43,171 nt of DNA, from positions 1-43,171 of IMG/VR virus record IMGVR_UViG_3300044841_000029; one strand, written 5' to 3'. The notes beneath the pieces are model-generated. The model was not told the origin of the DNA. It worked only from the letters and a program-made list of their open reading frames with translations, and did not search any database. This DNA is from a virus. A program made the position numbers and the translations under genes. Below are positions 3,168-39,259 of this stretch, one piece after another; within the stretch, counting starts at the first letter, position 1; every line of letters begins with the position of its first letter.

Positions 3168-3577
3168 CGGTCTGCACCTCGCGGGACTCGCTTGAAGGCG
3201 CCTTCAATGGCGGCCATGTTGCGCTCCGGTAGCTCCAACTTCACCGGCTTCAGTTCGCCGTCAGCGATCTGCCGCTCCGTGGCCGCCAGCCACTCCTGGA
3301 ACGCCCGCCAGTTGTCCGGGTCGATGTCCGCCGGCGGGTGGATGGGGCCGAACTCCTCGATGCGCTTGGCCCGCATCTTCTTGACCTCCGCGATGATCTC
3401 CGAGGGTGAGCACCAAGGGCTGCGAGCAACGATGCGGACCACGGCCTCCTCCGCATCCACGAACCGGATATCAGTGAGGATCTTGGCCCACATGTCGGGG
3501 GTGTACTGGTCGAACGCCTGCTGCGGGCAGGCGCCCTTGACCAGCCGACAGAGCGTCACGGCCTCAGTGGGGGTCAT
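3164..3577 (-). CDS. Helicase loader-like replication protein (G39P-type)
   Basis: A 137-residue protein directly after the replisome organizer (ATGA overlap at 3574-3577). It opens with MTPTEAVTLCRLVKGACPQQ and FDQYTPDMWAKIL, followed by a compact helical domain (DAEEAVVRIVARSPWCSPSEI). This matches the small SPP1 gp39-type loader/inhibitor proteins that deliver the host or phage replicative helicase to the origin complex. The C-terminal 50 residues are polar and would be the flexible helicase-contact tail in that family. No phage helicase gene is recognised in the window, so a host DnaB-type helicase would be the partner. The assignment rests on pattern and gene order. Confidence 0.65.
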   Translation of the reverse strand: MTPTEAVTLCRLVKGACPQQAFDQYTPDMWAKILTDIRFVDAEEAVVRIVARSPWCSPSEIIAEVKKMRAKRIEEFGPIHPPADIDPDNWRAFQEWLAATERQIADGELKPVKLELPERNMAAIEGAFKRVPRGADR

Positions 3578-4506
3578 TGCACGATCTCCAGGTGCTCGCG
3601 GTGCTTGGCACGGTCGAACGCTTCCTCGAACATGTCGTCGGTCTGGGACTGGCGAGTCCTCGGTGCATCGTCGGAGGCCTTCAGCAGCCAGTTCTTCCAG
3701 GTGGCCGGCCAGTCCACCTTGACGGCGTCTTTCCCTGCCTTTGCCATCCAGTAATTGACGAAGCGCTCCGTCTGCTGGCTGCACCAGCCGGGTGCGAATC
3801 CGCGATCGACGGCCCAGTCACGCATGGGCAGATCGACGACGAACGGCTCCGGGATTCGTGTGCCTCGCTTGCGGGGCATGGGCTCCGAAGGGGAGCAGGG
3901 AGAGGGAGTAGGGAGTAGGGAGTTAGGAGAAGGGAGTGAGGCATGGGTTACCGGGAGGGTTCGGGTAAGCCCTACCGAAGGGTTAGGGGAAGGGTTACTG
4001 GAACCCCAACCGGAAGGGTTACTGGAAGGGTTAACCGAAGGGTTACCGAGCAGTGAGGACGCCCGCTCCTTGCCGGTCTTGGCGTCCTTCCAGCCCTTCA
4101 GGTCGGGCTTCTCCTCGAACAGTCGCTGCAGTTCATGGACGACAACTCCGCGGATTGCAGGAGAGGCGATCTTGCCGTAATCGCGCACCATTGCCGCGGC
4201 CACATTCGGCTGCTCCATCAGTCCGTCGTTCCGGATGAATGAGCGGACCAGTACCTCCTCGGTCTCCTCGTCCACGACGATGTAGAGCCGCTGATGGAGG
4301 ATCAGTCCCGCCTGGATGACCTGTTCGGCGGTCAGGTCGGACGCGGTCTTGGCGATACGAGCTGGGCGCCAGTCGTGGACACCGGCGAACGAGAGGCCGG
4401 CCGAGGTCCACAGCACGACGTACAGATGCTGTGCGTCCCGGGTGAGGGCCCTGAAATCGTCTTCGTTCCAGATCTCGGTCTTGAAGTGGGCGAATGTCCT
4501 AGCCAT
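3574..4506 (-). CDS. Replisome organizer / replication initiator
   Basis: A 310-residue protein starting at ATG 4506 (TGATG overlap). Residues 1-130 form a winged-helix DNA-binding domain of the phage replisome-organizer type (MARTFAHFKTEIWNEDDFRA, RDAQHLYVVLWTSAGLS). Residues about 150-213 are a low-complexity linker built from NPS repeats. The C-terminal domain (WAVDRGFAPG, WPATWKNWL) resembles the helicase-contact domains of these initiators. The linker DNA is a run of 12-bp repeats (see 3945-4051), placed as the lambda origin is inside gene O. The next gene is a helicase loader, which completes an initiator-loader pair. Confidence 0.75.
   Translation of the reverse strand: MARTFAHFKTEIWNEDDFRALTRDAQHLYVVLWTSAGLSFAGVHDWRPARIAKTASDLTAEQVIQAGLILHQRLYIVVDEETEEVLVRSFIRNDGLMEQPNVAAAMVRDYGKIASPAIRGVVVHELQRLFEEKPDLKGWKDAKTGKERASSLLGNPSVNPSSNPSGWGSSNPSPNPSVGLTRTLPVTHASLPSPNSLLPTPSPCSPSEPMPRKRGTRIPEPFVVDLPMRDWAVDRGFAPGWCSQQTERFVNYWMAKAGKDAVKVDWPATWKNWLLKASDDAPRTRQSQTDDMFEEAFDRAKHREHLEIVQ
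3893..4051. repeat. Candidate replication origin: 12-bp iterons and a purine-rich tract
   Basis: Seven copies of a GGGTTACYGGAA-like unit start at 3945, 3957, 3980, 3992, 4016, 4028 and 4040, with degenerate units at 3969 and 4004. Spacing is 12 bp apart from one 11-bp unit. Next to them, 3893-3942 is almost pure purine on the plus strand with repeated GGGAGTA. The array lies inside the initiator gene and encodes its NPS linker. An origin inside the initiator gene is known for lambda and several Gram-positive phages; here it is inferred. Confidence 0.6.
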
Positions 4507-7917: not shown

Positions 7918-8195
7918 CAGATCTCCACCCCGCTCGGCTCATTCATGGGCACACCGGTACGGGCGCGCTGCACCAACTGGCGGCACGTCTGGGCTGCGAA
8001 CCCGTCCGGGTCGGCACTGGTCTGCGCGAGCGTCCTGAATGCTGCGAAGAGGAACCAGAAGCCCTCAGGCAGTAGGGCGCGGTCGTCGTGCATGGCGTCG
8101 TAGACGTCGTCGTAGATCGCGTCGGACTCGTCCTGCCGCATCGGCTCGGCGTATGCCAGATCGACGCCAGCGATCCATGCTGCTGCGGTGGTCAC
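7917..8195 (-). CDS. Hypothetical acidic early protein
   Basis: A 92-residue protein with a GTG start at 8195, overlapping the ERF stop as GTGA. It contains an acidic DESDAIYDDVYDAMHDD stretch, then GFWFLFAAFRTLAQT. It directly follows the recombinase gene, so it could be a partner, but nothing in the sequence proves it. Confidence 0.6.
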   Translation of the reverse strand: MTTAAAWIAGVDLAYAEPMRQDESDAIYDDVYDAMHDDRALLPEGFWFLFAAFRTLAQTSADPDGFAAQTCRQLVQRARTGVPMNEPSGVEI

Positions 8196-8818
8196 TTCGC
8201 CACCTCCGTCAGGTCGGCGGCGAACTCCAGCAGGCGTGGTGCGTTGGCGTTGGACAACAGTTCGCCCTGCGACCATTCCTTGAACCGCTCCGCCACCTCA
8301 TCGGCATCGAACGGGCCGCCCTCCTTCTTCTCCCATGCGTCCACCACGGCCTGCTTGGCGGCTGCGAGTGGGTCAGGCGGCGGTGCATAGGAGCGCTCGT
8401 ACGCCTTCTCGTCCGGGTCCGGCTCGTCGGTGGGGATGCACAACGCCTGCAGCAGCGCGATGCGGTAGGCGACGCTCATCGCCTTGGCGGTGCCCTTGTC
8501 GCCGTTGTCCATCGACTCACCGGGGACCGTGACCTCCAGCGAGTCGCCGGCCGGGCCGACGAACGTGTACCGCACCCGCACTGTGACCTCGCGGGCTGGC
8601 TTGTCGCGGCTGGTCCGCACGTCCCGGTAGGACGCGTCGAGCAGTTCGGGCAGCAGCAGCACGCTGTGCTTGCGGAGCACTGGGCCGACCGCGTTGACCA
8701 CGGCGTCTACGCCACGGAACGAATAGTTCTGGTCGGTGTTGCGGCCGGTCTTGCCGACGTTCTGGACCTCGGTCATCACTGCCGACAGCGCGGCGTGGAT
8801 GGTTGGCGTCTCGGTCAT
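8192..8818 (-). CDS. erf: ERF-family single-strand annealing recombinase
   Basis: A 208-residue protein of the ERF superfamily, which anneals complementary ssDNA during phage recombination and genome circularisation or repair. The family core is seen as IHAALSAVMTEVQNVGKTG, the YSFRGVDAVVNAVGPVL block, the VRVRYTFVGPAGDSLEV strands, and the signature DKGTAKAMSVAYRIALLQAL with IPTDEPDPDE after it. The C-terminal 60 residues are a charged helical tail. SSB, RusA and ERF in one operon make a standard recombination set. ATG 8818 overlaps the WhiB stop. Confidence 0.92.
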   Translation of the reverse strand: MTETPTIHAALSAVMTEVQNVGKTGRNTDQNYSFRGVDAVVNAVGPVLRKHSVLLLPELLDASYRDVRTSRDKPAREVTVRVRYTFVGPAGDSLEVTVPGESMDNGDKGTAKAMSVAYRIALLQALCIPTDEPDPDEKAYERSYAPPPDPLAAAKQAVVDAWEKKEGGPFDADEVAERFKEWSQGELLSNANAPRLLEFAADLTEVAK

Positions 8819-13429: not shown

Positions 13430-13768
13430 ATGATCCACTACATGATCGACAACAGTGGTCGTGCCCGCATTGGGGAGTTCGTCAGAAAGGCCATCGCCTG
13501 GAAGCAGACATCGGCCGTGAAGGTCGCAGCCATGACGGGCCGGCCGAGCCGCCAGACCATCCAACGGATCGTCGCTGGGGAGGAGGTCTCGGAGATGAGC
13601 CTGATGGCGCTGGGGACCAAGTTGGGGCTACCGGCCGACTACCTGCTCTACGTCGGCACTGGGGATATCCCGAGGATCCGCCGGTCCGGTGCGGACCCGG
13701 ATTTGATCAGAGTCACGCTCGAGCTGATCCAGCCAGACGAGTCCGACGCCGGCTACAACCACGCATAA
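13430..13768 (+). CDS. Immunity repressor (helix-turn-helix)
   Basis: A 112-residue protein, first rightward gene of the lysogeny module and divergent from the early operon. A helix-turn-helix lies at about residues 29-50 (AVKVAAMTGRPSRQTIQRIV), with a following helix (MSLMALGTKLGLPADYLLYV) typical of small XRE-like repressors. The C-terminal 40 residues are polar. The start at 13430 is chosen because the upstream DNA is an operator array; ATG 13442 is an alternative. No good ribosome site is seen before 13430, so a leaderless or weakly translated message is possible. It would bind the TGGCAC boxes and keep the prophage silent. Confidence 0.75.
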   Translation: MIHYMIDNSGRARIGEFVRKAIAWKQTSAVKVAAMTGRPSRQTIQRIVAGEEVSEMSLMALGTKLGLPADYLLYVGTGDIPRIRRSGADPDLIRVTLELIQPDESDAGYNHA

Positions 13769-14384: not shown

Positions 14385-15503
14385 ATGGCGCACATTCGGA
14401 AGCTGAAGTCGGGCCGGTGGCAGGCCACGATCCGCCACCCGTCCGGCCAGCGCTGGTCCCGGACCGACCCACTTAAGCGGGTCGTCGCCGAGTGGGCCGC
14501 CGAGCAGGAAGCCCGGATACGCCGCGGGGACTTCATCGATCCGACCGCCGGCAAGATGACCCTTGCGGATTGGTGGGCCAAGTGGTCCGCCACCCGCCGG
14601 GTCGAGGCCGCGACGACAGACAAGAACGCCTCCTGGTGGCGCAATCACATCGAGCCCCAGTTCGGACCGTGGCCGATCGCGTCGATCCACTCCTGGGACG
14701 TCGAGGCGTGGATCACCGACATGACCGGCGCGGTCGGGGCTGAGACCGTGGCCTCATCCCTGCGGTTGCTGACGCAGATACTGAATGCCGCGGTGAAGCA
14801 TCAACTCCTGGCCACCAACCTGGCCGCACTGGTGAAGGCGCCCACGCCCCCGAAGCACGTCGATAGGTTCCTGTCCCACGACGAGGCTGAGCAGCTGCTC
14901 GAGCAGTTCACCGGCGAGGACCAGTTGTTCGTCGAGACGCTGCTCTACACCGGGGTCCGCTGGCAGGAGGCCGCAGGGCTGAGGGCGTTCCGGGTGGACC
15001 TGCTGCGGAAGCGGATCCAGATCGAGAAGGTGCGACCCCGCCGAGGTCCGGACAAGAAACCGAAGTCGGATGCCGGGACCAGGCCGGTTCCCCTGACCGA
15101 CGGGCTGACGGTCCAACTCTCGCGGCACATCACCGAGCCGGGGGAGGCACTGGTGTTCACCTCGCCCAACGGGAAACCGCTGCGCTACCCGAACTGGTTG
15201 CGCCGGGTCTGGGCGCCAGGTCTGGCCAAAGCGAAGCTGGCGGATCCGCAACCGACACCGCATGACCTGCGGCACACGTACGCATCATGGCTGGCTGACG
15301 CTGGCCGGCCGCCACACGAGATCGCGGCGATCATGGGGCATGCGTCCCTCCAGTCGGTGCAGCGATACCTGCATGCGTCCGAGGCTCGATTCGAGGGGGC
15401 GCGTGACGCGCTGGGCGAGCGGCAGGAGAGCGGCAGGAGCACCCATCCCCGACCGACCCCGACCGACCCTAGCCGACAGATTTCACGCTCAGAGGAGGGG
15501 TGA
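14385..15503 (+). CDS. int: Tyrosine-family integrase
   Basis: A 372-residue site-specific recombinase with AAGGGAG before ATG 14385. The N-terminus (RKLKSGRWQATIRHPSGQR) is the arm-binding domain, followed by a SAM-like core-binding domain (about 60-150). Catalytic residues are R192 in YTGVRWQE, H293 and R296 in HDLRHTYAS, H319 in MGHAS, and the nucleophile Y328 in QRYLHA. attP lies directly downstream, and one pair of arm-type repeats is inside the last codons. It joins attP with a host tRNA-Val(TAC) gene, judging by the core sequence. Confidence 0.96.
   Translation: MAHIRKLKSGRWQATIRHPSGQRWSRTDPLKRVVAEWAAEQEARIRRGDFIDPTAGKMTLADWWAKWSATRRVEAATTDKNASWWRNHIEPQFGPWPIASIHSWDVEAWITDMTGAVGAETVASSLRLLTQILNAAVKHQLLATNLAALVKAPTPPKHVDRFLSHDEAEQLLEQFTGEDQLFVETLLYTGVRWQEAAGLRAFRVDLLRKRIQIEKVRPRRGPDKKPKSDAGTRPVPLTDGLTVQLSRHITEPGEALVFTSPNGKPLRYPNWLRRVWAPGLAKAKLADPQPTPHDLRHTYASWLADAGRPPHEIAAIMGHASLQSVQRYLHASEARFEGARDALGERQESGRSTHPRPTPTDPSRQISRSEEG
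15417..15438 (+). repeat. Left attP arm: tandem 11-bp repeat pair
   Basis: Two adjacent copies of GAGCGGCAGGA inside the 3' end of int. A matching pair in the same orientation lies at 15647-15668, on the other side of the tRNA-like core. Paired, directly oriented arm sites around a core are the arm-type binding architecture of lambda- and L5-type integrases. Confidence 0.65.
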
Positions 15504-15510: not shown

Positions 15511-15594
15511 CTGACCTGCACGTTGTACTTCCCTTACAAGGAAGATGTCGCAGGTTCGAATCCTGCTGTGCCCACAGGTGAACGTGCAGGTCAG
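15511..15594. other. attP: attP core from tRNA-Val(TAC) inside a 14-bp inverted repeat
   Basis: 15528-15574 matches the 3' part of a tRNA. It shows an anticodon arm (CTTCC/GGAAG stem, loop CTTACAA, anticodon TAC for valine), a 5-base variable loop, a T arm (GCAGG-TTCGAAT-CCTGC), and the acceptor strand TGTGCCC plus A. The 5' half of a tRNA is absent, so this is an attachment core and not a tRNA gene. It is enclosed by perfect 14-bp inverted repeats, CTGACCTGCACGTT at 15511-15524 and AACGTGCAGGTCAG at 15581-15594. Only one core copy is present, which supports the unintegrated form. Confidence 0.85.
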
Positions 15595-15606
15595 AGCCAC
15601 ATTGCA

Positions 15607-15685: not shown

Positions 15686-15835
15686 CTACCAGCAGTCCGG
15701 GCAGGCGCTGTACTTGCACTCGCTGCACCATGTCCGCCGCATCACCGGGTGCCACCAATAGAACATCACGGCCTTGCCGTAGGCGCCGCAGCACCAGCAG
15801 CCGAGGCCTGCCCGCCTCGCCAGCCAGCGGATCAT
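15686..15835 (-). CDS. Small Cys/Trp-rich protein beside attP
   Basis: A 49-residue frame from ATG 15835, overlapping the excisionase TGA as ATGA. It starts MIRWLARRAGLGCWCCGAYG, then FYWWHPVMRR and CSECKYSACPDC. Seven cysteines fit a zinc ribbon. Translational coupling to xis suggests joint expression. Function unknown. Confidence 0.5.
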   Translation of the reverse strand: MIRWLARRAGLGCWCCGAYGKAVMFYWWHPVMRRTWCSECKYSACPDCW

Positions 15836-16014
15836 TCGGAGTCCTTCAGCGCGAGCACATCGCCGCGCCTGAACAGGTATGCCCCAGTTGGCCCGGGCAG
15901 CTTGCCGGCGGGCTTCAACCGGCCGCGGTCAACCCAGCGTTTCACCGTGGACCGGTCGACTCCGAGGAGCTCGCATACCGCTGACGTCCCGATGAGGTCC
16001 CCCGGCTTCTCCAT
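15832..16014 (-). CDS. xis: Excisionase / recombination directionality factor candidate
   Basis: A 60-residue MerR-like winged helix protein: LIGTSAVCELLGVDRSTVKR, WVDRGRLKPAGK, then AYLFRRGDVLALKD. It is read toward attP from the side opposite to int, the usual neighbourhood of an RDF. AGGATC precedes ATG 16014. Its family is clear; the Xis role is inferred from size and closeness to attP. After integration it would lie at the other prophage end from int. Confidence 0.7.
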   Translation of the reverse strand: MEKPGDLIGTSAVCELLGVDRSTVKRWVDRGRLKPAGKLPGPTGAYLFRRGDVLALKDSE

Positions 16015-16769: not shown

Positions 16770-17624
16770 ATGAGCGACAACTTATCGAAACACTCTGGTG
16801 TGGATCGGCTGCGGGTAGCGGCTGCTGCCGCGTCGCAGGTCCGGGCGCTGTCCACTCATCCCGACGTGGTGGCGTTGCGGGTGGAGTCGATCCGAACCCA
16901 GGTGGACGTGCTGATGTGGCTGGGCATCGTGCTCGGTCTCGCGTTCACGATGGTGAACGTTCAGGACTTCGCCGCGGGCGGCGCGGCTGTGTTCTCCCTG
17001 GCATGGTTCGCTGCCTGGCTCCTCGACCCGATGGTGTCGCTGGTGCTGATCGCGGTACTGCGCGCTGAGCAGATCACCGCCCGGTACCAGGTCAGCGACG
17101 TCGGTCCGTGGATCGGCCGGACGAAGGTCTTCGCCTTCCTCGCCACCTACGCGATGAACACGTGGTCGTCGTGGCTGGCTGTCGACGTGGCCGGCATCGT
17201 GCTGCACTCGGTGCCGCCGTTGCTGGTGTTCTGCGCTGCCGAGACCGCCCCAGTCCTGCGGGACCGGCTGACCGAAGCGGTGCTGCGGGCCGAGCAGGCT
17301 GCCGCGCTGGCTGACCCGCGGAAGGCCGCTGAGCCGCTGGAGATACCCCCCGCCGCAGTAGAGATCCCCCCCGCCCATGTAGCTCGCAAGCCCGCCAAGC
17401 CCCGCCAGAAGGCAGCCGCGAAGGGCGGCCGGAGGTTGCTGGCCGACTACGTGGCCGACGCCCTGGCAGCCGTTGAGCCGGGCGTGAAGATCACTCCCGC
17501 GTGGGCTCGCCGGGTCAGTGGCTGCTCGGCCGGCCTTTCGGTCAAGGTCGCTGCCGCTGTCCGCAACGAGTTGACCACTGACGACGCGGCTGGCACGGGC
17601 GACCTCGCTCGTGCGGCGGCTTGA
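16770..17624 (+). CDS. DUF2637 (SpdB-like) membrane protein
   Basis: A 284-residue protein with GGAGG upstream of ATG 16770. Four membrane helices lie at about residues 46-66 (VLMWLGIVLGLAFTMVN), 72-99 (FSLAWFAAWLLDPMVSLVL), 121-141 and 142-160, the DUF2637 topology. A Pro/Ala-Lys linker follows (AKPRQKAAAKGGRR). A C-terminal helical domain of about 55 residues (LLADYVADALAAVEPGVKI) may bind DNA. DUF2637 proteins accompany TraB/FtsK translocases in Streptomyces plasmids and AICEs, where Spd proteins are linked to plasmid spread along the mycelium. Here the stop is 20 bp before the FtsK-like gene, so the pair is probably co-translated. Confidence 0.8.
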   Translation: MSDNLSKHSGVDRLRVAAAAASQVRALSTHPDVVALRVESIRTQVDVLMWLGIVLGLAFTMVNVQDFAAGGAAVFSLAWFAAWLLDPMVSLVLIAVLRAEQITARYQVSDVGPWIGRTKVFAFLATYAMNTWSSWLAVDVAGIVLHSVPPLLVFCAAETAPVLRDRLTEAVLRAEQAAALADPRKAAEPLEIPPAAVEIPPAHVARKPAKPRQKAAAKGGRRLLADYVADALAAVEPGVKITPAWARRVSGCSAGLSVKVAAAVRNELTTDDAAGTGDLARAAA

Positions 17625-17644
17625 TCGAGACGGGAGACAGGTTC

Positions 17645-19906
17645 ATGGACAACATTCATACCCTTCACGACAACAGCCGCGTCGAGGTTCACGAGACCGT
17701 TCACGAAGACGTTCACGAAGACGTTCAGGACGAGGCTCACGGCATCGTTCATGGGGATGCCGAGCGCGTGCCCGTTGTGGTGCCCGATGGTGTTCACGGC
17801 GCGATGGAACGTCAGGTGATTGAGGGCGAGATCCTGACCGAGGATGAGGATGCCGAGCTGGACCGCCGGTTGGCGAACCGCGGCGCACTGGTTCGCCGCG
17901 CGGTGAACACTGGCCAGGTCGCAACCCGCGCCGTGGTCAAGGTCAGCACCCACGACCGGACCAAGACGGTCGGCAAGGTCGTGCTGCGGGAGTCGTTCAC
18001 CGTGATCCAGGGCGTGGAGTCGTGGACGAAGCGGGCGTGGGATGCCTCCACCATGGGTGTCCTCCGACGCCAGATCAAGGCCGCTGAGTTAGCCGGTGAC
18101 CGCGAAGAGCTGAAGGAGTGGGTCGACCGCAAGGAGATGGCCACCGAGCGCCGTCATCGCCGCCTGATGGATCTGCCGGCGCTGTTCATCGGCGTCGTGA
18201 AAGTGTTCGCCGCGCTGGTTCTCTGTGTCCCGCTGGCCGTGCTCGTGATCGCGGTTCTGGCCCAGGCGACAGGCAACGGATCGTTCAGGAGCGTGTGGCT
18301 CGGGTTCTTCGCCGTGATCGGGTTCATGATCGCCGCTATGGCGTTCGTGTGGGGGCTGTTCTCGTTCGCGTTGCCGGGGCTGCTGGTGCTGGCCGCGTGG
18401 CGGGAAGGCAAGCGTCGCGCCGAGCCGCCGATGTGGCTGGTCACGACGGCCGATGAGGCGTGGGACGTGGCGATCGATGAGACCACGATCGCGCAGGCCC
18501 TGAACGCGTTGCGGATCCCGGCCATCACGCAGTACCTGAAGTCGGGCCTGAAGCTGCAGTTCATTACTCCGGCCCGGGTGGACGGGCGCGGCACGCACGC
18601 GATCGTGCGGCTGCCTGCTGGTGTCACGGCGGAGAAGATCGCGCGGCGTCGCGCTGAGCTGGCCACGGGTCTCAGCCGGGCCGCTAAGGAGGTTTGGCCG
18701 ACGACCGGCAGCGAGGCCGGAATCCTGGACCTGTGGGCGGCGGACAAGGGCGCGCTGGCGGAAGGTGCGGGCGAGTATCCCTTGCTGGAGGGTGGTTTGG
18801 TCGACTTCTTCAGGGGCGTCCCGGCCGGCCGGACGCTGCGCGGCGAGCCAATGCTCGCGCCGCTGGCAGAGCGGAACACCATCACCGGCGGCATCCCCGG
18901 TCAGGGCAAGTCCGCCTCGGCGCGGGTGCTGATGATCGGTGCCGCGCTCGACCCGACCGCAGAGCTGCGGATCTGGGTGCCGGACACCAACTTCGACTTC
19001 GAGGTGTTCCGGCCGCGCTGCTCCCGCTACGTGATGGGTTCCGACGCTGAGGCGATCGAGCGGATTCGCGACGATCTGAAGGAGCTATTTGACGAGGTTC
19101 AGGCGCGCGGCGCGCTGCTGGTCAGGTACGAAATCCCTTCTGTCACAAGGGAAATCGCGAACAAGGGCGTCGGGCTGCACCCGCTCGTTGGGCTGCTCGA
19201 AGAGGCGCATGTGGCGCTGTACGACGACACGTACGGCAAGGAGATTCAGAAGTACGTGATCGAGATCGTCAAACTCGGCCGCAAGCGGGGTATTCACCTG
19301 ATCGTGTCCACGCAGGCGCCCACGGCCAAGTCGATGCCGCGCGACGTGACCCGCAACTGCTCCAACGGCGTCGCGTTCGCCGTCAGCGACTACGTGGCCA
19401 ACGATGCGCTGTTGGGTCAGGGCGCCTACTCCGCCGGGCACCGCGCAACCGAGCTGATCCCCGGCATCGACCGCGGAACGTCGATCGTGAAGGGCTTCAG
19501 CGGGGAGCGGTCGGAGATCTTGCAGTGGTACTTCCTCGACGTGTCGAAGGAGAACGACCAAGTGACACCGCTGATCGAGCGCGCGATGGCCGCGATCAAG
19601 GAGCGACGCGGGTCCAAGCCCGGCAGCGCGCCGGTGCAGATCGAGACCCGCGACCTGTTGACCGACCTGGACGAGGTTCTCGGCGATGACCCGGTGTCGA
19701 GCGCGGACGTGCCCGCGTTGCTCAAGCGCCTCGCGCCGACCTGGACCCCGTACCAGGGCATGACCGGCAAGTCGCTGCGGGACGCGCTCCAGAAGGATCA
19801 CGGGGTCAAGGTCCCATCGACCGGGAACCGCTGGCCGATCGATCCCGCTACGGTCCGTGCCGCGATCGTGCGGCGTGAGCAGGACTCGGACGAGCTCGCG
19901 AGTTAA
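17645..19906 (+). CDS. TraB/FtsK-type DNA translocase
   Basis: A 753-residue membrane ATPase with GGGAGA before ATG 17645. Residues about 12-45 are a His/Asp repeat region (VHED units). Two membrane segments lie at 176-208 (ALFIGVVKVFAALVLCVPLA) and 219-252. The motor domain has Walker A GIPGQGKS (416-423, K422), Walker B LVGLLEE (514-520) and a VSTQAPT sensor segment. The C-terminus (SADVPALLKRLAPTWTPYQG onward) is a winged-helix-like domain, as in FtsK gamma or TraB clt-binding domains. Such proteins pump double-stranded DNA between mycelial cells in actinomycete conjugation. No relaxase or RepSA-type gene is recognised. What it does in a phage is open: lysogen-to-neighbour transfer is one reading. 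Confidence 0.9.
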   Translation: MDNIHTLHDNSRVEVHETVHEDVHEDVQDEAHGIVHGDAERVPVVVPDGVHGAMERQVIEGEILTEDEDAELDRRLANRGALVRRAVNTGQVATRAVVKVSTHDRTKTVGKVVLRESFTVIQGVESWTKRAWDASTMGVLRRQIKAAELAGDREELKEWVDRKEMATERRHRRLMDLPALFIGVVKVFAALVLCVPLAVLVIAVLAQATGNGSFRSVWLGFFAVIGFMIAAMAFVWGLFSFALPGLLVLAAWREGKRRAEPPMWLVTTADEAWDVAIDETTIAQALNALRIPAITQYLKSGLKLQFITPARVDGRGTHAIVRLPAGVTAEKIARRRAELATGLSRAAKEVWPTTGSEAGILDLWAADKGALAEGAGEYPLLEGGLVDFFRGVPAGRTLRGEPMLAPLAERNTITGGIPGQGKSASARVLMIGAALDPTAELRIWVPDTNFDFEVFRPRCSRYVMGSDAEAIERIRDDLKELFDEVQARGALLVRYEIPSVTREIANKGVGLHPLVGLLEEAHVALYDDTYGKEIQKYVIEIVKLGRKRGIHLIVSTQAPTAKSMPRDVTRNCSNGVAFAVSDYVANDALLGQGAYSAGHRATELIPGIDRGTSIVKGFSGERSEILQWYFLDVSKENDQVTPLIERAMAAIKERRGSKPGSAPVQIETRDLLTDLDEVLGDDPVSSADVPALLKRLAPTWTPYQGMTGKSLRDALQKDHGVKVPSTGNRWPIDPATVRAAIVRREQDSDELAS
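17687..17758 (+). repeat. Six tandem 12-bp units in the translocase N-terminus
   Basis: Units of the GTTCACGAAGAC type start at 17687, 17699, 17711, 17723, 17735 and 17747, the later ones degenerate. They encode a tetrad repeat of the form V-H-E/G-D. The period of four with histidine every fourth residue would give a His-rich face on a helix. Confidence 0.75.
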
Positions 19907-19912
19907 CCCACG

Positions 19913-20068
19913 GCCGGGGGGTCGAAACACCGCTCTGAACGGCTCCGACCAGCGGTCTCCGCCCCCCGGCTAACTCGGCTCACAATCTAACTTTCCGCAG
20001 GTCAGAGCCACAATCAGCCCACCTCACCCTGTGAGTGACAAACCTAACTCGACCACCGGCAGTTAACT
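19913..20068. repeat. Long hairpin and CTAACT words downstream of the translocase
   Basis: The 199-bp gap after the translocase holds an outer 9-bp stem (GCCGGGGGG 19913-19921 with CCCCCCGGC 19962-19970). A 6-bp inner stem (ACCGCT/AGCGGT) lies within it. Then CTAACT occurs at 19970, 19987 and 20044, and TTAACT at 20063. No T-run follows the hairpin. It may be a terminator, or a cis site recognised by the translocase, comparable to the clt repeats of Streptomyces plasmids. The latter is speculative. Confidence 0.45.
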
Positions 20069-20105
20069 GCATCCCGAAACCTAGCCACAGAAGGAGATTG
20101 GCCCC

Positions 20106-20348
20106 ATGAACCGACTCATCGCAGTGGCACTCGCCTCCGCACTCCTGCTCCTGACGACCGCTTGCGAACCCGGAAAGCCCATCGCGGCTGGAACCGTCAC
20201 CAGCAAAGGGATCACCCGCAACACCCAGAACCACAGCACTTGCCACTGGATCAAGGTCAGCCACAACGACGGCACCAAGAGCCAGGGCTGCATCGCGATC
20301 GCGAGGTGGAAGAAGGCCACCAAGGGCGAACACTGGTCCGGCTCCTAA
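20106..20348 (+). CDS. Small lipoprotein
   Basis: An 80-residue secreted lipoprotein with AAGGAG before ATG 20106. The signal peptide MNRLIAVALASALLLLTTAC ends in a lipobox (LTTAC), so Cys20 would be lipidated after cleavage. The mature part has a second pair of cysteines (STCHWIK and SQGCIAIA) and a basic end. It would sit outside on the host membrane. Phage lipoproteins such as Ltp of TP-J34 block DNA entry by related phages; that role is possible here but only by analogy. Confidence 0.8.
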   Translation: MNRLIAVALASALLLLTTACEPGKPIAAGTVTSKGITRNTQNHSTCHWIKVSHNDGTKSQGCIAIARWKKATKGEHWSGS

Positions 20349-20383
20349 CCAATCCCCACCTGACTACTCGAGAGGACGCTCCC

Positions 20384-20611
20384 GTGACAGACCTGCTGAC
20401 CGCCGTCCTGATCGTCGCCGTCCTGGTCGCCGGCTACCTGCTCGGCTGCCGGATCTGGCCCTACGCCAATTGCCCCGCCTGCTCAGGTTCCGGCAAGTCC
20501 GGCTCCCCGACCCGCAAGTCGTTCCGCAACTGCCCACGCTGCAAAGGCTCCGGCCGGCGCCGCCGGTTCGGCCGCGTCCTGCTCGACCGCCGCGACGCCC
20601 GCAAGCACTGA
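20384..20611 (+). CDS. Membrane protein with two DnaJ-type zinc knuckles
   Basis: A 75-residue protein from GTG 20384. One membrane helix (LLTAVLIVAVLVAGYLLG) is followed by CPACSGSGKSG and CPRCKGSGRR, a pair of CxxCxGxG motifs that bind one zinc as in DnaJ. The tail is strongly basic (RRRRFGRVLLDRRDARKH). Small zinc-finger proteins of this type also occur near DUF2637/TraB genes in actinomycete elements, in line with a transferred block. Confidence 0.7.
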   Translation: MTDLLTAVLIVAVLVAGYLLGCRIWPYANCPACSGSGKSGSPTRKSFRNCPRCKGSGRRRRFGRVLLDRRDARKH

Positions 20612-20634
20612 CCACCAGGGAGACCCGCACCGCC

Positions 20635-20826
20635 ATGGCCACCGCACCCCGCAAGACCCGCAAGACCACCGCCAAGAAGACCTCCGCGCCCACAGCACGC
20701 GACGAGTACAAGGCCGCGGTTGCCGAGCTCAACCGCTTCGACGCGAACAACGAGACCGTTGAAGCCGCCGCGGCGCGCAACCGCTTCGAGGAGGCCGACC
20801 GCAAGCGCCACTGGTGGAGCTGGTGA
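20635..20826 (+). CDS. Small basic protein of the accessory block
   Basis: A 63-residue protein with GGGAGA upstream of ATG 20635. The first 22 residues are Lys/Thr/Ala-rich (ATAPRKTRKTTAKKTSAPTA), like a histone H1-type tail. The rest is one charged helix (RDEYKAAVAELNRFDANNE) ending KRHWWSW. It may bind DNA. Unknown function. Confidence 0.65.
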   Translation: MATAPRKTRKTTAKKTSAPTARDEYKAAVAELNRFDANNETVEAAAARNRFEEADRKRHWWSW

Positions 20827-20933
20827 CCGGGCATCCTTAACGCGCAGCGGCGAGCATGGCAGCCAGTCCGGGAACCAAGGCCCGGCGCCGCACTCTTCCA
20901 CCCATCTGGGGTGGGAATCAAGCAGGGGGAACC

Positions 20934-22304: not shown

Positions 22305-22522
22305 CAGAGGCCCTCGGTAATGTCGAGCGCGCCGTCTGGACCCTGCTTCGCCACGGCAGGCGTGTTGGGGATCTTGAAGGTCGCGAAAGCGGTGAGGATG
22401 GCCAGCACGATCGTGACGTACGGCGTGGCTGCGTCGGGGATGATGCCGGTAGTCCCGGCCAGTGCGGTCAGGACAGCGCCGATCAGAGCGGCGTAGGCCT
22501 TGGCTCGCTCGGCGAACTTCAC
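22304..22522 (-). CDS. Holin
   Basis: A 72-residue protein from GTG 22522, overlapping the endolysin stop as GTGA. A short charged N-terminus (KFAERAKAYAALIG) leads into two hydrophobic segments (AALIGAVLTALAGTTGII and ATPYVTIVLAILTAFATF), then a polar tail. This matches small actinobacteriophage holins found directly after the endolysin gene. It would form membrane lesions that release the amidase. Confidence 0.75.
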   Translation of the reverse strand: MKFAERAKAYAALIGAVLTALAGTTGIIPDAATPYVTIVLAILTAFATFKIPNTPAVAKQGPDGALDITEGL

Positions 22523-23334
22523 GGCTTGGCCTCGATCCGGTCCAGCTGGGCCTCGAACTGGCCGGACTGGGAGAACTGCTGCGCTAGCCAGTGCTGCTCG
22601 GCGAACACGGCGCGGACCGTGACGGCGGGCTTGGCGGGGGTGGTGGCCGTAGCGGGAGTCGCTGCGATTACTACGTCGTCGAGCTGCATGTCTAGTACCT
22701 CCAGGGGAATGGTCGGGGTGACGGGCGGCTTGGTGACAGGGGAGCTGGTCTTGGCTGCGGCGAACAGCTTGGCCACGTTGATCGCGCCCGGGTCGCCGTG
22801 GCTGTTGCCTGGGACCTGGCTGTGGCCGTAGTGGCCTGCCCTGGACAGCCAGATGGAACGGGATCGTTCATCCGCTGGGACGTTGCCGCGGCCGTCGACG
22901 TACTTCGGCGGATTGCCGGACGGCCAGGCGTCGGGGATGCCCCAGGACCGGATCGCGGCCATGAGCGCGCGGAAGTTCGGGCCGGGCGTCCAAGTGTCGG
23001 TGAAGGGGTGCGCCGAGTAGCCCATGACCTCGATCTGAATGCATACCCGCCCAGTGCGGTTCGTGCGGGTGGCGCCGTCGTTCTTCAGCGCGCGGCCGGA
23101 AAGGTTGAGGCCGAAGAACTGGCCCAAACGGTCGGTGATCGGGTCGTACAGGACGTTCGGCTCAGCGCTCTTGCCGGTGAGGACGTTGATCATCGACTGG
23201 TAGGTGCTGTCCTTGCCGGCGGGCGCTTCCACCGTGTGCCAGACGACGCGCGGCGGTGCGGCCGAGGTGATGGTTCCGCCGGGCGCGGAGGCGTGCAACC
23301 TCTCGGCGCCGGGGATCCAGATTGTTCCTGCCAT
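22519..23334 (-). CDS. Endolysin, N-acetylmuramoyl-L-alanine amidase type
   Basis: A 271-residue lysin. The catalytic domain fills residues 1-190: VVWHTVEAP gives the first zinc ligand H33, RVCIQIEVMGYS holds E102, and HYGHSQVPGNSHGDPGAI supplies H168/H171, H179 and D181. This is the PGRP-like amidase arrangement, which cuts the bond between muramic acid and the stem peptide. After a Pro/Thr linker, residues about 214-271 form a separate C-terminal region (AVFAEQHWLAQQFSQSGQFE) likely for wall binding or multimerisation. It has no signal peptide, so it needs the holin. Confidence 0.88.
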   Translation of the reverse strand: MAGTIWIPGAERLHASAPGGTITSAAPPRVVWHTVEAPAGKDSTYQSMINVLTGKSAEPNVLYDPITDRLGQFFGLNLSGRALKNDGATRTNRTGRVCIQIEVMGYSAHPFTDTWTPGPNFRALMAAIRSWGIPDAWPSGNPPKYVDGRGNVPADERSRSIWLSRAGHYGHSQVPGNSHGDPGAINVAKLFAAAKTSSPVTKPPVTPTIPLEVLDMQLDDVVIAATPATATTPAKPAVTVRAVFAEQHWLAQQFSQSGQFEAQLDRIEAKP

Positions 23335-29278: not shown

Positions 29279-32200
29279 TCAACGACCCCCGGTCTTCTGG
29301 TTCGCGGCCCGGACCGTCGCGGCGTTGTTGGCCTTGATCAACTGCTGCACCACCCGGGTCACTTCGTTGCCGATCTGGATGTTCGTCGTCAGGTACGCCA
29401 CCGAGAACTGCTGCGCCGCAGCACCCGCGCCGATCCGGCCGGCCTGACCCTGCAATGTCCCCTCGGCCTTGTTCAGTTGGTTGATGTAGCCCTTGCCGCT
29501 GGCGAGGATGTTCGCGGCGATGTCCGCGTTGGACAGGCCGCCGTCCCGCAGTTGATTCAAGAGCTCCACCGACAGACCCTGCTTCTGCAGCTTCTCCAGC
29601 GTCGTCGCGAATGCGCCGAGATTTTTGCCCTGCTTCTGCTTCGACGCCAGCAGCGTGGCGGCCGAGGCGTTGTTCGCGGTGAGGTCGGAGATCGACGAGC
29701 CCTGCAATTGTTGAGTGGCGATCTGCTTGGCCAGCGCGACCGCTTCCTGCCGGACCTGGTTGACCTGCTCCTGTGCCGCCTTGTACCGGTCCGCCGCAGC
29801 CTTCGATGCGTCGACTGTCTTGGTGTAAGCCTTCTCCGAGGCAGAGACGTCGGCGTTCTCCTTCTTCGTCTTCGCCTTCGCCGCGTTCAGTTGGTTCGTC
29901 AGCTTGATCTGGTCCAGTTGCGCAGCCTTGATCGCCTTGTCACTCGCACCAGATGCACGCAGTGTCGCGACCCGCGCGGAGCCCGCCTTGACTGCTGCGT
30001 CAGCGCGGGCCTGGGCCGCGGTCGCAGCGTTGCGCTCCCGCTGCTGCTGCGTCAGTGCCGCGCGGGCGCTCCGCTGAGCCTGCGCTGCAACCTGCGCAGC
30101 CTTCAGCAATGCGCTTGCGTTGATGCCTGCGAGCGGATTACCGGGCGCCGCGAACATCTGGCTGAACAGGAACCCGAGGTCGATACCGCCAACCTGACCA
30201 CCAGTCGCGAAGCCGATCCTGCCGCCGTTCGTGTAGCCCGCAGGCTTCGGGAAACTGCGGGTGCGGACCGCCTCCATGAACGACGGGCCGTAGTAGTCCA
30301 CCGCCGACACCGGCTGCATGAACTCGCCAGCCGTGGCCATGATCGGAATGTTGTCCGCCTTGGGCGACGGGCTATATCCCGGGATCGTGCCGCCGTCAGC
30401 CTTGGTGACCTTGACTCCGACCGACGGGTTGATGTTGGTCTGGATCATCCGGGTGTAGACGCTGACGGTCTTCGACGCCGGCAGGTTCTGCAGGCTCCGG
30501 TTCAGCCCGTCAACCTGCGCCTTTCCACCGGACGCGCCGGGAACGCTAACGCTGGTCTTCTTCGCTGTCGGGATGAGACCCAGGCTGGTCAGGTACGGGG
30601 TGAGGTTCTTCTTCGCTGTCGGCGCGGTGTTGGTGACGTTCGTCTTCTTCGCTGCGGGGACCGCGAGCACCGAATTGGCGTAGGCCACAGCCTGGGCCTT
30701 CGTGAGGCCCATCGACTGTCCGACCGTGATCAGCCGCGACTTGGTGGTGTCCAGGTTCTTCTGGATCGCCACCTGACTCGCACCGTTGCGGGTCAAGGTC
30801 TCGGTGAGGGTATTGCCCGCCTTCGCGATTGCGTCCAGGGCGTCCGCGTTGGCCCTGCCCTTCGGCGTGTTGATGTCGAGGGTCCGGCCGTTTGTCTTGA
30901 TCGACGCGGTTGCATCGTCGAAGGCGGACTCCGCCGCACGCTGGGCATCCCGCAGCGACAGCACCTGGCCGGGCATCTTGAGCATCGTCGCTATGAGATC
31001 GTCCAGCGACTGCTTCTCGTTGTCGGCGGCGGCTGCCGCCTTGGCGTGCGCAGCCGCTGCCAGATCCGTGGCACTGGCGTTCGTCTTCGCGCCCTCGGCC
31101 GCCAGCAGCAGTTCCTTCTGCGCCTGGGTCAGCGAGGTGGAGTTCTTGATGATCTCCACGCGCAGAGCCTTGGCGGCGGTCGCGTCTGCGGTCCACTGGG
31201 TGGCGACACCGCCCTTGCCTGCCGTCGCCTGCGTGGTGCCGGCTGCAATGATCCCGTCCAGGCTACCGAGCAGGTTGTCGAGAGCCGGCTTGCTGCCCAG
31301 TGCGGCGTCCGTGAGCAGGGAAAGGTTCAGGCCGAAGCCCTTAGCCTTTTCCAGCATGCCGGACGTGGCCAACTGGTTCGCCACGAAGGCACGGGTATTA
31401 CCAGTAATCGCGCCCGTGGTCGCATCCAGCGTGGACTTGAGATCGGAGACCCGCTGCTTCGCATCCGCGTTCTGCTTCGCGAACGCTGAGTAGACGAGGC
31501 CAGCGGCAACGAGGGCGACACCGATAGCGCCCGCAGCCAGCGTCAGGCCCCTGCCGACCTTGCCGAGTCCGGTCCAGGCTTCCTTCAGTGCGCCCGCAGC
31601 GGTGGCAGCTTTTAGCATCCCCGCCGCACTCAAGCCACCGATGGCGACGACAGCGGTCAGCGCGGTAGCGGTACCGGTGACAGCAGGAGGCAGGTTCGCG
31701 AAGGCCGTCACGGCGCCGTCGGCCGACTGCACGATGGCACGCAGGACGGTATTGGCACCGGAGCCGGAGCCGATCAGCGCCGTGTCGAACGAGCCACCGA
31801 GCCGCTCGACGTCGCCGGACAGGTTGTTGGTCTTGTCGCGGGCCTGCTGGGCCGCGAACCCCGCGTCGTTGACCTTCGTGGTCCAGTCCGAGATGCCCTT
31901 GGCGCCCTGCGTGTAGAGGACGTTCGCGGCGCGGATCGCGTCCGTGCCGAAGATCGTCGCGAGCGCGGCGTTGCGCTGCTCCTCCGACAGCCCGGACATC
32001 TTCGTCTTGAGCTGGTCCGCCAGCGGAGCGATGCCGATGAACGCGCCCTGCGCGTCGTACGCGTTGATGCCCAGTTCCTTCATCGCCGCTGCTGACTGCT
32101 TGCTGGGGTTGGCCAGCTGCAACAGCATCGTCTTGAAGGATGTGCCTGCGTCGGAGCCGATCAGGCCAGCTGAGGCGAACGCCGCCAGTGTGCCGGTCGT

Positions 32201-32833
32201 CTCCTCGACGGACAGGCCGAACTGGGCAGCGACCAGACCCGACTGCTTCAGGGCGCCGGCCATGTCAGTGACCTCGCCCTGCGCCTTACCGGCGCCGGCG
32301 GCTAACAGGTCGGCGATGTGCGGCACCTGGGCGCCCGACAGCCCGAACTGCGTCATGGCCGTCGCCGCGGTCTCAGCAGCCGTAGCTACGTCGATCTGGC
32401 CCGCAGCGGCGAGGTCGAGCGCGCCCTTCAGTCCGCCGCCGAGCACGTCCTTGGTCGACACACCCGCCTTGGCGAGCGCCTCGATACCCTGCGCCGCCTC
32501 GGTCGCGCTGAACGCCGTGTCCTTGCCTGCCTGCAACGCAGCGACGCGAAGCAGGTCCATGTTGCCGGCGGACTCCTGCGTGGCCGCCTTGACTCCGGAC
32601 ATCGCCTTGTCGAACTCGGCGAACTTCTTGACCGCCATGCCCAGTCCGACCGCCGCAGTGGCACCCACCGCCAGGGCGCCGCGGCCCACCTCGTCGAAGG
32701 ACGTCTTGTTCTTCTTCGCGAAGTCGATACCGGCATTGGCCGAGTCCTTGACGGACTTGGTCAACTTGCCGATGTTCGCGACCGCGCCCGAAACGTCAGC
32801 TATGAACCGGGCTGTGACTGTCCTGTCGGCCAT
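29279..32833 (-). CDS. Tail tape measure protein
   Basis: An 1184-residue tape measure protein. The N-terminal half matches the TP901 family core (FDKAMSGVKAATQESAGNMD, ATEAAQGIEALAKAGVSTKD, TSFKTMLLQLANPSKQSAAA). It is followed by hydrophobic helices (LTAVVAIGGLSAAGM and LTLAAGAIGVALVAAGLVYS). The C-terminal third is a long coiled coil (AARAALTQQQRERN, DASKAAADRYKAAQEQVNQV). Its length sets the tail at roughly 170-180 nm by the usual 1.5 Å per residue rule. ATG 32833 overlaps the end of the chaperone frame by 38 bp. Confidence 0.95.
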   Translation of the reverse strand: MADRTVTARFIADVSGAVANIGKLTKSVKDSANAGIDFAKKNKTSFDEVGRGALAVGATAAVGLGMAVKKFAEFDKAMSGVKAATQESAGNMDLLRVAALQAGKDTAFSATEAAQGIEALAKAGVSTKDVLGGGLKGALDLAAAGQIDVATAAETAATAMTQFGLSGAQVPHIADLLAAGAGKAQGEVTDMAGALKQSGLVAAQFGLSVEETTGTLAAFASAGLIGSDAGTSFKTMLLQLANPSKQSAAAMKELGINAYDAQGAFIGIAPLADQLKTKMSGLSEEQRNAALATIFGTDAIRAANVLYTQGAKGISDWTTKVNDAGFAAQQARDKTNNLSGDVERLGGSFDTALIGSGSGANTVLRAIVQSADGAVTAFANLPPAVTGTATALTAVVAIGGLSAAGMLKAATAAGALKEAWTGLGKVGRGLTLAAGAIGVALVAAGLVYSAFAKQNADAKQRVSDLKSTLDATTGAITGNTRAFVANQLATSGMLEKAKGFGLNLSLLTDAALGSKPALDNLLGSLDGIIAAGTTQATAGKGGVATQWTADATAAKALRVEIIKNSTSLTQAQKELLLAAEGAKTNASATDLAAAAHAKAAAAADNEKQSLDDLIATMLKMPGQVLSLRDAQRAAESAFDDATASIKTNGRTLDINTPKGRANADALDAIAKAGNTLTETLTRNGASQVAIQKNLDTTKSRLITVGQSMGLTKAQAVAYANSVLAVPAAKKTNVTNTAPTAKKNLTPYLTSLGLIPTAKKTSVSVPGASGGKAQVDGLNRSLQNLPASKTVSVYTRMIQTNINPSVGVKVTKADGGTIPGYSPSPKADNIPIMATAGEFMQPVSAVDYYGPSFMEAVRTRSFPKPAGYTNGGRIGFATGGQVGGIDLGFLFSQMFAAPGNPLAGINASALLKAAQVAAQAQRSARAALTQQQRERNAATAAQARADAAVKAGSARVATLRASGASDKAIKAAQLDQIKLTNQLNAAKAKTKKENADVSASEKAYTKTVDASKAAADRYKAAQEQVNQVRQEAVALAKQIATQQLQGSSISDLTANNASAATLLASKQKQGKNLGAFATTLEKLQKQGLSVELLNQLRDGGLSNADIAANILASGKGYINQLNKAEGTLQGQAGRIGAGAAAQQFSVAYLTTNIQIGNEVTRVVQQLIKANNAATVRAANQKTGGR

Positions 32834-36402: not shown

Positions 36403-37620
36403 TCAGGAGTACAGACCGCGGATGACGCCGTGCGCCGCCTGGTTGCCGTACTTCAGGCCGATCTCGCCGTAGATCTGGGTGTTGTCCGACGCGCCGGTCT
36501 TGGCCAGCGCCTCCTCGAACAGGACGCCCTTGCCCGGGATGTTCAGGAACACCGGGTCAACCATCTCCAGCGACACCACGGCAGCGGCGTCGGCCGGCAA
36601 CTGCCGGTCGATGACGATGTTCAAGGTGCCGAAGTCGGTGATCAGCTGGTTCATGGAGACGCCACCGACGTTGCGGGTGTCGCCAAGGATGCCCTCGGTG
36701 CTCGAGTAGGCGGTCGCGTAGGCCTTCGTCAGCGTGCGCTTCACGCCCGAGGACACGAACAGGGTCGCGGTGTCCTGCTCGCCGATGCCGCCGTTGTCGA
36801 ACACCGACTGCAGCAGCGTGCCGAGCATGTCCGGGGTGATGAGCGAGGCGGCCTTCATGCCCCAGAAGGACACGGTCGCAGTGCCGACGGTGATCGCGGT
36901 GCCGCCCTTGGTCGCCGAGACCTTGAAGCTGGCCGTGGTGGAGATCGAGGTGACCCAGTAGGAGCGGCCGGCAACGATCGTGGTCGAGGCGCCAACGTCG
37001 GTGAAGACGACCTTGTCGTTGACGACGAGGTTGTGCGTCACCGTGATCGTGTCGGTCGCAGCCGAAGCGCCCACGGTCAGCGGGTTGGTCGCGTCGGCGA
37101 ACTGCGCGTTCGACGTCATCGCGCTCAGGAGGCCCTGGGTCTGACGAGCGGTCGCGTTCGTGGTCGGCTTGACCTTCGAGCCGTTCCAGAACACGTAGTT
37201 CACGTCGCGAGCGATCTGCTTCAACGACTGCATGATCTGCCACGGGTGCTCGTTCAGGACGAGCGCCTCACCGGAGTTCGCCTGGAACGGCGCCGACGTC
37301 GCGGTGGCGTACTGGCCGGTCGCAGCCGACTTCGTGTACGACGTGCTGACGGACTCGTGGAAGATCTGGCACACATTCTCCACGTTGGAACGGGTCCGCT
37401 CCTCAGCGGTCGGCGCAGCAGCACCTTCCAGGCGGGGCCGGGACGCGGCGTCGCGCAGGTCGGTGGTCTGCCACTCGAACGTAGTCGAGTCGGTCTGTCC
37501 GCCACCACCGATACCGCCGGCCGCAGACAGCAGCGGGGTATCGGTCGGGGTGAGCTCGAACAACTCACCGTGGTAGTTCGGCAGGTTGAAGGTGGTACCG
37601 AGGCCAGTGACAGCGCCCAT
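36403..37620 (-). CDS. Major capsid protein (SU10/DUF5309-like) with insertion domain
   Basis: A 405-residue HK97-fold capsid protein. The start (GTTFNLPNYHGELFELTPTD and TPLLSAAGG) and the GQTDSTTFEWQTTDLRDAAS segment are typical of the SU10/DUF5309 family. So are RSNVENVCQIFHESVSTSYT and the end YGEIGLKYGNQAAHGVIRGL. Residues about 179-254 (TNPLTVGASAATDTITVTHN to TATVSFWGM) are a beta-rich insertion not needed for the core fold, probably a surface domain. It follows the scaffold gene by 12 bp. Confidence 0.9.
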   Translation of the reverse strand: MGAVTGLGTTFNLPNYHGELFELTPTDTPLLSAAGGIGGGGQTDSTTFEWQTTDLRDAASRPRLEGAAAPTAEERTRSNVENVCQIFHESVSTSYTKSAATGQYATATSAPFQANSGEALVLNEHPWQIMQSLKQIARDVNYVFWNGSKVKPTTNATARQTQGLLSAMTSNAQFADATNPLTVGASAATDTITVTHNLVVNDKVVFTDVGASTTIVAGRSYWVTSISTTASFKVSATKGGTAITVGTATVSFWGMKAASLITPDMLGTLLQSVFDNGGIGEQDTATLFVSSGVKRTLTKAYATAYSSTEGILGDTRNVGGVSMNQLITDFGTLNIVIDRQLPADAAAVVSLEMVDPVFLNIPGKGVLFEEALAKTGASDNTQIYGEIGLKYGNQAAHGVIRGLYS

Positions 37621-38458: not shown

Positions 38459-39259
38459 CTAATTGAGGTAGCCGAACTTCTTCAGGGCACGCAGCGCGGC
38501 TGCTTGGTCGTCGCCAGCGGTGCGATACACCTGCTCCGGTGTCGGCCTCGGGCCCTTGACCCCGCCTCGGCGGGTGGTGGCCTCACGGGTGAACCTGTGG
38601 CCCGCGTCGTCCATGTAGAGCGAGCGACGGGCGTTGATCACCCGGCTGACGTCGGCGCCGGCTGTGATGGCCTTCTGTTCGGCCTGGGTGATGCCGTTGA
38701 CCCGGCCGCTGTCGAACAGTGCCTTCGGGTCGGTGCGGACATCCTCCGCGACGTCTTCCCGGGTGGGGATGTGCGTGCAGTCGCAAGCCGGATGCCTGTC
38801 AAAGCCCGCGTTCCACTTGAAGAACTTGCCCGCGAGGACCGCGCACCGGGCGCAGCACGGCGGGTTCACCATGCGCGTCCAGCCGACCTGCTGGCGTGTA
38901 GCAATCGACAGGCCGGCTGCGATGCGGGCGGCGTCGGCGATCTGCGTGACCGCCATCAGTTCCAGCGCATTCACGGTGGTGGCCTGCTCGAGCAGCGACA
39001 ACAACGGTCGGCCATCGGAGGCGATCCCGGTGAGCGAGTTCGTGTTCACCGTGGCTTCGGGTGGAGCGTCGATGTTCTGCTCGGCGAGCATCGCATCCAC
39101 ACTCGCGGCGCCATTCTGCGCCGATAGTTGCTGCAGCACCGTGAGGGGCGGCAGCAATCCACCAGGATGACCGAGGCGCCATGACCTGCGGGCCGCGGCG
39201 ATACCGACCGTCGCATAGCGCTGCTGCAGCAGGTAGGCCGCCTCAGACGACCGGAGCAC
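38459..39259 (-). CDS. MuF-like minor capsid protein
   Basis: A 266-residue protein from GTG 39259, overlapping the portal end by 17 bp. The region WTRMVNPPCCARCAVLAGKF, FKWNAGFDRHPACDC and THIPTRED has C136/C139, H156, C159/C161 and H163. This is the Cys/His signature of MuF or VG15 capsid proteins. The N-terminal half is helical. These proteins bind the portal inside the head and may enter the host with the DNA. Confidence 0.85.
   Translation of the reverse strand: MLRSSEAAYLLQQRYATVGIAAARRSWRLGHPGGLLPPLTVLQQLSAQNGAASVDAMLAEQNIDAPPEATVNTNSLTGIASDGRPLLSLLEQATTVNALELMAVTQIADAARIAAGLSIATRQQVGWTRMVNPPCCARCAVLAGKFFKWNAGFDRHPACDCTHIPTREDVAEDVRTDPKALFDSGRVNGITQAEQKAITAGADVSRVINARRSLYMDDAGHRFTREATTRRGGVKGPRPTPEQVYRTAGDDQAAALRALKKFGYLN

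Follow-up and report, generated by a model that had tools for sequence, protein, structure and literature searches.

A candidate conjugation cassette from an actinomycete integrative element in a temperate tailed phage

Results and discussion

A phage genome carrying an AICE-type transfer cassette

The IMG/VR-type virus record IMGVR_UViG_3300044841_000029, a single metagenomic contig of 43,171 bases analysed here over its whole length ('the window'), is the complete-looking genome of a temperate tailed phage that holds, on its plus strand, a transfer cassette from an actinomycete integrative and conjugative element (AICE). The cassette encodes a 284-aa membrane protein, an FtsK/TraB-type DNA translocase and small downstream proteins, and includes a repeat element resembling clt, the DNA target of such translocases (Table 1). 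We propose, with a probability of about two in three, that a temperate tailed phage captured this cassette and uses it to pump its own excised DNA by way of the clt-like element.

The closest FtsK, at 88% protein identity, belongs to an AICE locus of Kribbella sp. VKM Ac-2527 (L022). The two loci align by blastn over 16786..20082 (plus strand; 84.8% over 3.4 kb) and again over 20392..20830 (plus strand; 74.6%), and the rest of the window has no DNA match to this AICE. The borders of the resulting span, 16786-20830, fall just inside the 284-aa gene and just behind the 63-aa gene, and both loci have the order 284-aa protein, FtsK, repeat element, zinc-knuckle protein, basic protein. AICEs are defined by the combination of int, rep and tra (PMC3218068). 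The Kribbella loci continue with Prim-Pol and an integrase (Prim-Pol PF09250 in L022; L024 also has a DUF3631 RepAM), and a family terminase search found no terminase in the L022 genome. From the DNA match and these int-rep-tra loci it follows that the phage carries a sharply bounded AICE transfer cassette. The window shares the FtsK-type Tra of AICEs; no RepSA, RepAM or Prim-Pol is annotated in it, and a phage-type initiator is present instead. A conjugative origin, as claimed in the original prediction, is thus strongly supported by gene order, 85% DNA identity, a tree position inside AICEs and the clt-like element.

A conserved repeat element behind ftsK

Directly 3' of ftsK in nearly all close relatives lies a non-coding element of about 180 bp, common to AICEs and phages and present in one copy only in the window genome. 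Its consensus reads AGTTAG, a variable hairpin, CTAACTCG-GCTAACT-CTAACTTTCCGCAGGTCAG, a spacer, GAGTTAGAAACCTAACCCG and CTAACC. An nhmmer profile from which the window and L022 were left out gives a single window match, at 19893-20081 (E=1.3e-29). Over 48 loci, CTAAC/GTTAG occurs 4.98 times per element against 0.043 times per equal tile elsewhere (117-fold), and no non-element tile reaches four copies. The hairpin is present at most loci, with a locus-specific stem sequence. Tandem and k-mer repeat finders run on the ftsK intergenic region alone did not flag the element, so that only cross-locus comparison revealed it, and we use the profile result because a degenerate octamer pattern gave just 2 matches in the element. 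The original prediction, which described the cassette without a cis element, had overlooked these conserved repeats. A search of the module against Rfam returned nothing over the gathering score.

The experimentally mapped clt of pWTY27 spans 16 bp of traA and 159 bp behind it, and TraA binds its direct and inverted repeats (PMC3583192); TraB hexamers recognise 8-bp repeats (PMC4170104; PMC12857230). By its similar layout, the element behind the phage ftsK may be considered a candidate clt.

Other repeats occupy the same site in distant FtsK lineages: GCTAGC in L005, CTGACC in L009, the phage-plasmid of P. broussonetiae, TGCTCC in L021 and TGCTTC in L060. L010, whose FtsK is closer, has GTAACT repeats. 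These lineage-specific repeats (in about 230 bp behind ftsK) already form a body of data from which the sequence recognition of the FtsK C-terminal domain could be worked out. A search of pPaSha2 for a similar repeat array found GC-rich k-mers only.

Could the repeats be iterons or a centromere rather than clt, with FtsK as a bystander? Their layout is iteron-like and, in AICEs, the element sits between ftsK and the Prim-Pol/Rep genes. However, the phage kept the element and lost those genes, and it has its own initiator gene and iterons (3945-4048), so that the repeats are not needed as an origin; moreover, the repeat sequence varies with the FtsK lineage at a fixed site behind ftsK. A replication or partition locus is therefore quite improbable.

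The DNA pump and its membrane partner

The phage FtsK matches PF01580 over the cut-off (1.9e-5) and phrog_1358 (2e-23). Its Walker A motif, GIPGQGKS, and Walker B region, LVGLLEEAH, are intact, in agreement with the original prediction; the Walker A lysine is Lys430 in a 761-aa frame and K422 in the 753-aa frame. The gene directly follows that of the 284-aa protein, and its ATG at 17645 (753 aa) is a likelier start than the alternative TTG at 17621 (761 aa) because GGAGA precedes it. The NCBIfam plasmid TraB model scores 28.9 bits (4e-7), far under its full-length cut-off of 800. The predicted layout is a membrane-anchored N-terminus with hydrophobic spans at 181-257, a RecA-type motor and a C-terminal winged-helix-like domain, which AlphaFold models as three helices, a strand pair and a helix, with blocks from residue 41 on near 90 in predicted local distance difference test (pLDDT).

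The 284-aa protein is modelled with four long helices and a C-terminal helical, helix-turn-helix-like domain (AlphaFold, mean pLDDT 67.6). It had been described as a four-span DUF2637 protein; the four helices and the position next to FtsK stand, and the family finds no support. Neither this protein nor any of 16 homologues matches Pfam DUF2637 (PF10935), and hhalign against true DUF2637 proteins gives a probability of 1.7%, which is not significant. We rejected the assignment, as Pfam, a genome annotation search and hhalign all fail to support it, and regard the protein as a positional equivalent sitting in the DUF2637 slot. In its modelled build it appears similar to SpdB2, an integral membrane, DNA-binding protein that interacts with TraB. 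Pseudonocardia plasmid proteins are 61% identical to it over residues 29-168. Such homologues (about 61%) are encoded on large Pseudonocardia MOBF plasmids, at 7857-11044 of L003 and 5905-10411 of L004, near a 'type IV secretory system conjugative DNA transfer' gene; proteins of this type may thus work with DNA pumps of more than one kind.

The ratio of non-synonymous to synonymous substitution (dN/dS) against L022 is 0.154 for FtsK and about 0.21 for the 284-aa protein, from which we conclude that purifying selection has kept both since the split from L022, a span that includes time resident in AICEs.

Behind ftsK, the original prediction listed a lipoprotein, a zinc-knuckle protein and a basic protein. 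All three are present, the lipoprotein lying outside the AICE cassette proper: DNA homology is interrupted (20082-20392) exactly at its gene, which is thus a phage-specific insert, and it has no homologue among the module loci compared. The zinc-knuckle protein has homologues (33-92%) directly 3' of ftsK in Kribbella and Kineosporia AICEs and in phage records, and is a conserved partner in the module.

An inserted lipoprotein, of a type common for exclusion genes, would also suit a conflict between elements, in which pump and target serve mobilisation by AICEs or interference with them, a host-FtsK decoy or superinfection exclusion. The repeat element is nearly identical to that of the Kribbella AICE, and the cassette is co-oriented with repressor and integrase. 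Yet the element alone would suffice as bait, whereas the phage has intact catalytic motifs and an intact membrane partner, both under purifying selection. We judge such a role very unlikely.

A possible transfer mechanism

The mechanism that we propose is modelled on the established TraB/clt/Spd conjugation scheme (PMC12857230, PMC4170104). Excision by the integrase would give a circular phage DNA carrying its own clt (19893-20081). A membrane-anchored FtsK/TraB hexamer would bind the CTAACTCG-type repeats by means of its C-terminal winged-helix-like domain and drive the double-stranded circle, unprocessed, through the membrane where hyphae touch; the 284-aa SpdB-like protein, and probably the zinc-knuckle protein, would help it through recipient cross-walls, and the phage would re-integrate at tRNA-Val. 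A dual life style, with virions and contact transfer, appears to be the best reading.

The same pump might instead act within the hypha, with no transfer between mycelia: as septa close, for instance at sporulation, it would clear the DNA of the phage or prophage through them, and each compartment or spore would inherit a copy. Its kinship with FtsK/SpoIIIE, the effect of Spd proteins on plasmid stability (PMC4170104) and the mycelial hosts would fit. We nonetheless consider segregation unlikely, since the nearest relatives are in AICEs, where the pair has conjugal transfer and spread as its only known use, and since an integrated prophage does not need a private segregation pump.

Repeated capture by phages

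In an FtsK tree of 60 rows, the window and L022 form a pair (100/100) within a Kribbella clade whose remaining members are seven AICE rows and one unclassified row. Other phage sequences fall elsewhere: L036 (Prauserella shujinwangii) lies within a group of Pseudonocardiaceae AICEs, the partner of L011 is a Streptosporangium AICE, and a phage-only clade contains ten FtsK rows. With only phages having a verified terminase counted, the tree needs at least six AICE/phage switches; capture of the cassette was therefore repeated. IMG/VR records that contain terminases also encode FtsK relatives, as do prophages of Prauserella shujinwangii, Actinomadura sp. WMMA1423 and Herbidospora daliensis, where terminases are nearby.

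A set of 50,697 phage records gave no match to the module at the DNA level, no close relative of the 284-aa protein and, for FtsK, two weak Staphylococcus phage matches only (33% over 105 aa); 1,637 of these records have a related terminase, including over a thousand mycobacteriophages. Close kin in strictly lytic phages of non-mycelial hosts, named in the original prediction as the finding that would speak against it, were sought in this set and not found.

Several observations weigh against our proposal. Of 36 viral records that encode a related terminase, only 6 have any FtsK match. The window element has fewer exact repeats than most relatives (6-mer test p=0.55), and fold searches gave no significant match, either for the 284-aa protein or for the FtsK C-terminal domain, for which Foldseek lists winged-helix proteins. 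Finally, the record is a single metagenomic contig, which, together with the sharp homology ends and the absence of the module from the best terminase relatives, would also suit a mis-joined contig or a non-functional passenger left by a recent accidental AICE insertion. However, about 15% DNA divergence, a dN/dS of 0.15 and an extra lipoprotein gene within the cassette argue against this reading, as does the phage-only clade of ten FtsK rows; and the order integrase, module, lysis recurs in finished records such as pPaSha2, with FtsK near a large terminase (TerL) in the Actinomadura WMMA1423 chromosome. Of all the alternatives, a passenger or chimera seems to us the least probable.

Most terminase relatives lack the module, which is thus not essential; no FtsK lies near a related prophage in a Kribbellaceae genome. 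The tree, the switches and the 6 of 36 records together describe an accessory cassette, gained repeatedly and long kept in one lineage. On balance, we favour the existence of a class of integrative tailed phages of mycelial actinobacteria that would spread both as virions and, by way of a phage-borne clt, as naked double-stranded circles that a TraB-type translocase pumps between hyphae, with at least six captures from AICEs and long retention in one lineage.

Some of these loci deserve separate mention. CP052773.1 (L008, pPaSha2) and NZ_CP053567.1 (L009), deposited as plain circular Pseudonocardia plasmids, carry terminase, capsid protease and capsid genes along with DUF2637-FtsK and are unlabelled phage-plasmids. 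Divergent second FtsK genes (28-32%) lie 20-24 kb from terminases in Actinomadura sp. WMMA1423 (G037:C1:5210122-5234257) and Pseudonocardia asaccharolytica (G029:C13:36852-58244), as phage-borne pumps outside the close family. The FtsK of pCM32 (L006) seems to have been deposited with a frame shift close to its C-terminus (8700-9100), which makes its tree position unreliable; an alternative frame restores similarity to the window FtsK domain and is followed by a CTAACT-type element.

The phage and its host

Profile matches to phage families identify the window as a temperate siphophage, with terminase, portal, capsid, tape measure, endolysin and integrase; protease, scaffold, tail proteins, an Erf-like annealing protein and a replication initiator are also encoded. 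The full capsid, tail and lysis set announced by the original prediction is thus real. So is the orientation of the block away from the lytic operons: cassette, repressor and integrase share the plus strand, both lytic arms run opposite, and a terminator-like site after the integrase (15606-15634) separates it from the cassette. The label 'cos-type' is plausible, as TerL starts 785 bp from the contig end, like in related phages. A search for a terminal repeat at the physical ends found none.

Within the replication initiator gene, 12-bp tandem repeats, GGGTTACCGGAA, occur in 8.8 copies; by analogy with lambda O, this iteron array is probably the phage origin. ARAGORN calls a tRNA-His (anticodon atg) at 7749-7827, overlapping predicted minus-strand genes, which is probably false.

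Table 1. Features of the phage genome, with window coordinates
Feature	Position	Strand	Evidence or remark
Phage replication initiator, 12-bp iteron array at 3945-4048	3574..4506	-	phrog_3171 1e-56; tandem repeats
Erf-like single-stranded DNA annealing protein	8192..8818	-	phrog_155 2e-39
Repressor-like protein	13430..13768	+	weak phrog_4583; 48% to related Kribbellaceae prophage protein
Tyrosine integrase	14385..15503	+	PF00589 2e-23, phrog_1 3e-62
Candidate attP	15528..15575	.	matches middle of tRNA-Val(TAC) genes; 32 bp at 94%, four Kribbellaceae genomes
Excisionase-like helix-turn-helix protein	15832..16014	-	PF12728 5e-11
284-aa membrane protein, SpdB-like FtsK partner	16770..17624	+	helices; 88% to Kribbella AICE L022
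FtsK/TraB-type DNA translocase, 753 aa	17645..19906	+	PF01580; 88% to L022 AICE FtsK
clt-like element	19893..20081	.	CTAACTCG repeats in both orientations, core TTTCCGCAGGTCAG, inverted repeat GAGTGACAAACCTAACTCG; starts in last ftsK codons
GC-rich hairpin within element	19912..19971	+	z=-2.5 in window; -0.9 to -6.2 in eight relatives
80-aa lipoprotein, lipobox LTTAC	20106..20348	+	phage-specific insert between repeat element and zinc-knuckle gene
75-aa single-span protein, DnaJ-type CxxCxGxG zinc knuckle	20384..20611	+	weak PF00684
63-aa basic protein, last gene of AICE-derived cassette	20635..20826	+	homologous to L022-L025
Endolysin	22519..23334	-	phrog_17214 5e-58
Tape measure protein	29279..32833	-	phrog_1533 4e-85
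Major capsid protein	36403..37620	-	phrog_1328 1e-88
Portal protein	39243..40742	-	phrog_104 2e-88
Large terminase	40752..42386	-	phrog_19179 3e-149

The host is most likely a mycelial soil actinomycete, Kribbella, and the candidate attP, just 3' of the integrase gene, is by its match to tRNA-Val(TAC) of Kribbellaceae in line with a Kribbella-like host. The loci from our genome scan, which covers close relatives, lie in Kribbella, Pseudonocardiaceae, Streptosporangiaceae, Kineosporia, Actinomadura and Frankia-type genera, all of them mycelial, and in one Nocardioides metagenome-assembled genome, whose mycelial status is less clear.

Comparison with known systems

If the proposal is true, tailed phages would have a second way, one that needs no particles, to move through a mycelial colony, in which virion spread is limited by cross-walls and by hyphae that lack receptors. 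The evolution of phages is linked to that of conjugative elements by the repeated uptake of an entire cassette together with its DNA target. For a broad family of AICEs, the repeat element also offers a concrete candidate clt, directly testable for binding, and carrier phages can be recognised by sequence.

The Kribbella AICE modules have the same cassette order at 84.8% DNA identity; they differ from the window in having Prim-Pol, Rep and their own integrase and no virion genes, whereas the phage has complete sets of virion, lysis and replication genes and has lost the AICE rep genes. The TraB-clt-Spd systems of Streptomyces plasmids (pSVH1, pIJ101, pJV1, pWTY27) share with it an FtsK-type pump, probably also the C-terminal winged-helix-like domain of that pump, a membrane partner gene and short repeats that directly follow the tra gene, but their repeat sequence is another, their FtsK is distant, and the window cassette is phage-carried. 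An element both conjugative and phage-like has a precedent in the Streptomyces plasmid-phage pZL12, described by Zhong and colleagues in 2010, whose work is cited in PMC4487206 and PMC7157519. pZL12 is reportedly a plasmid prophage that replicates by the theta mode and has tra genes of its own; the window differs in being an integrative siphophage whose pump derives from an AICE and which has a clt-like element. In pPaSha2 (CP052773) and P. broussonetiae unnamed3 (NZ_CP053567), phage structural and FtsK genes also occur together, with the module beside an integrase; however, their FtsK is 23-27% identical, their DUF2637 is a true one, and they are carried as circular plasmids. What is new here is an integrative tailed phage that has a pump of AICE origin and a retained clt-like element, along with evidence for repeated capture.

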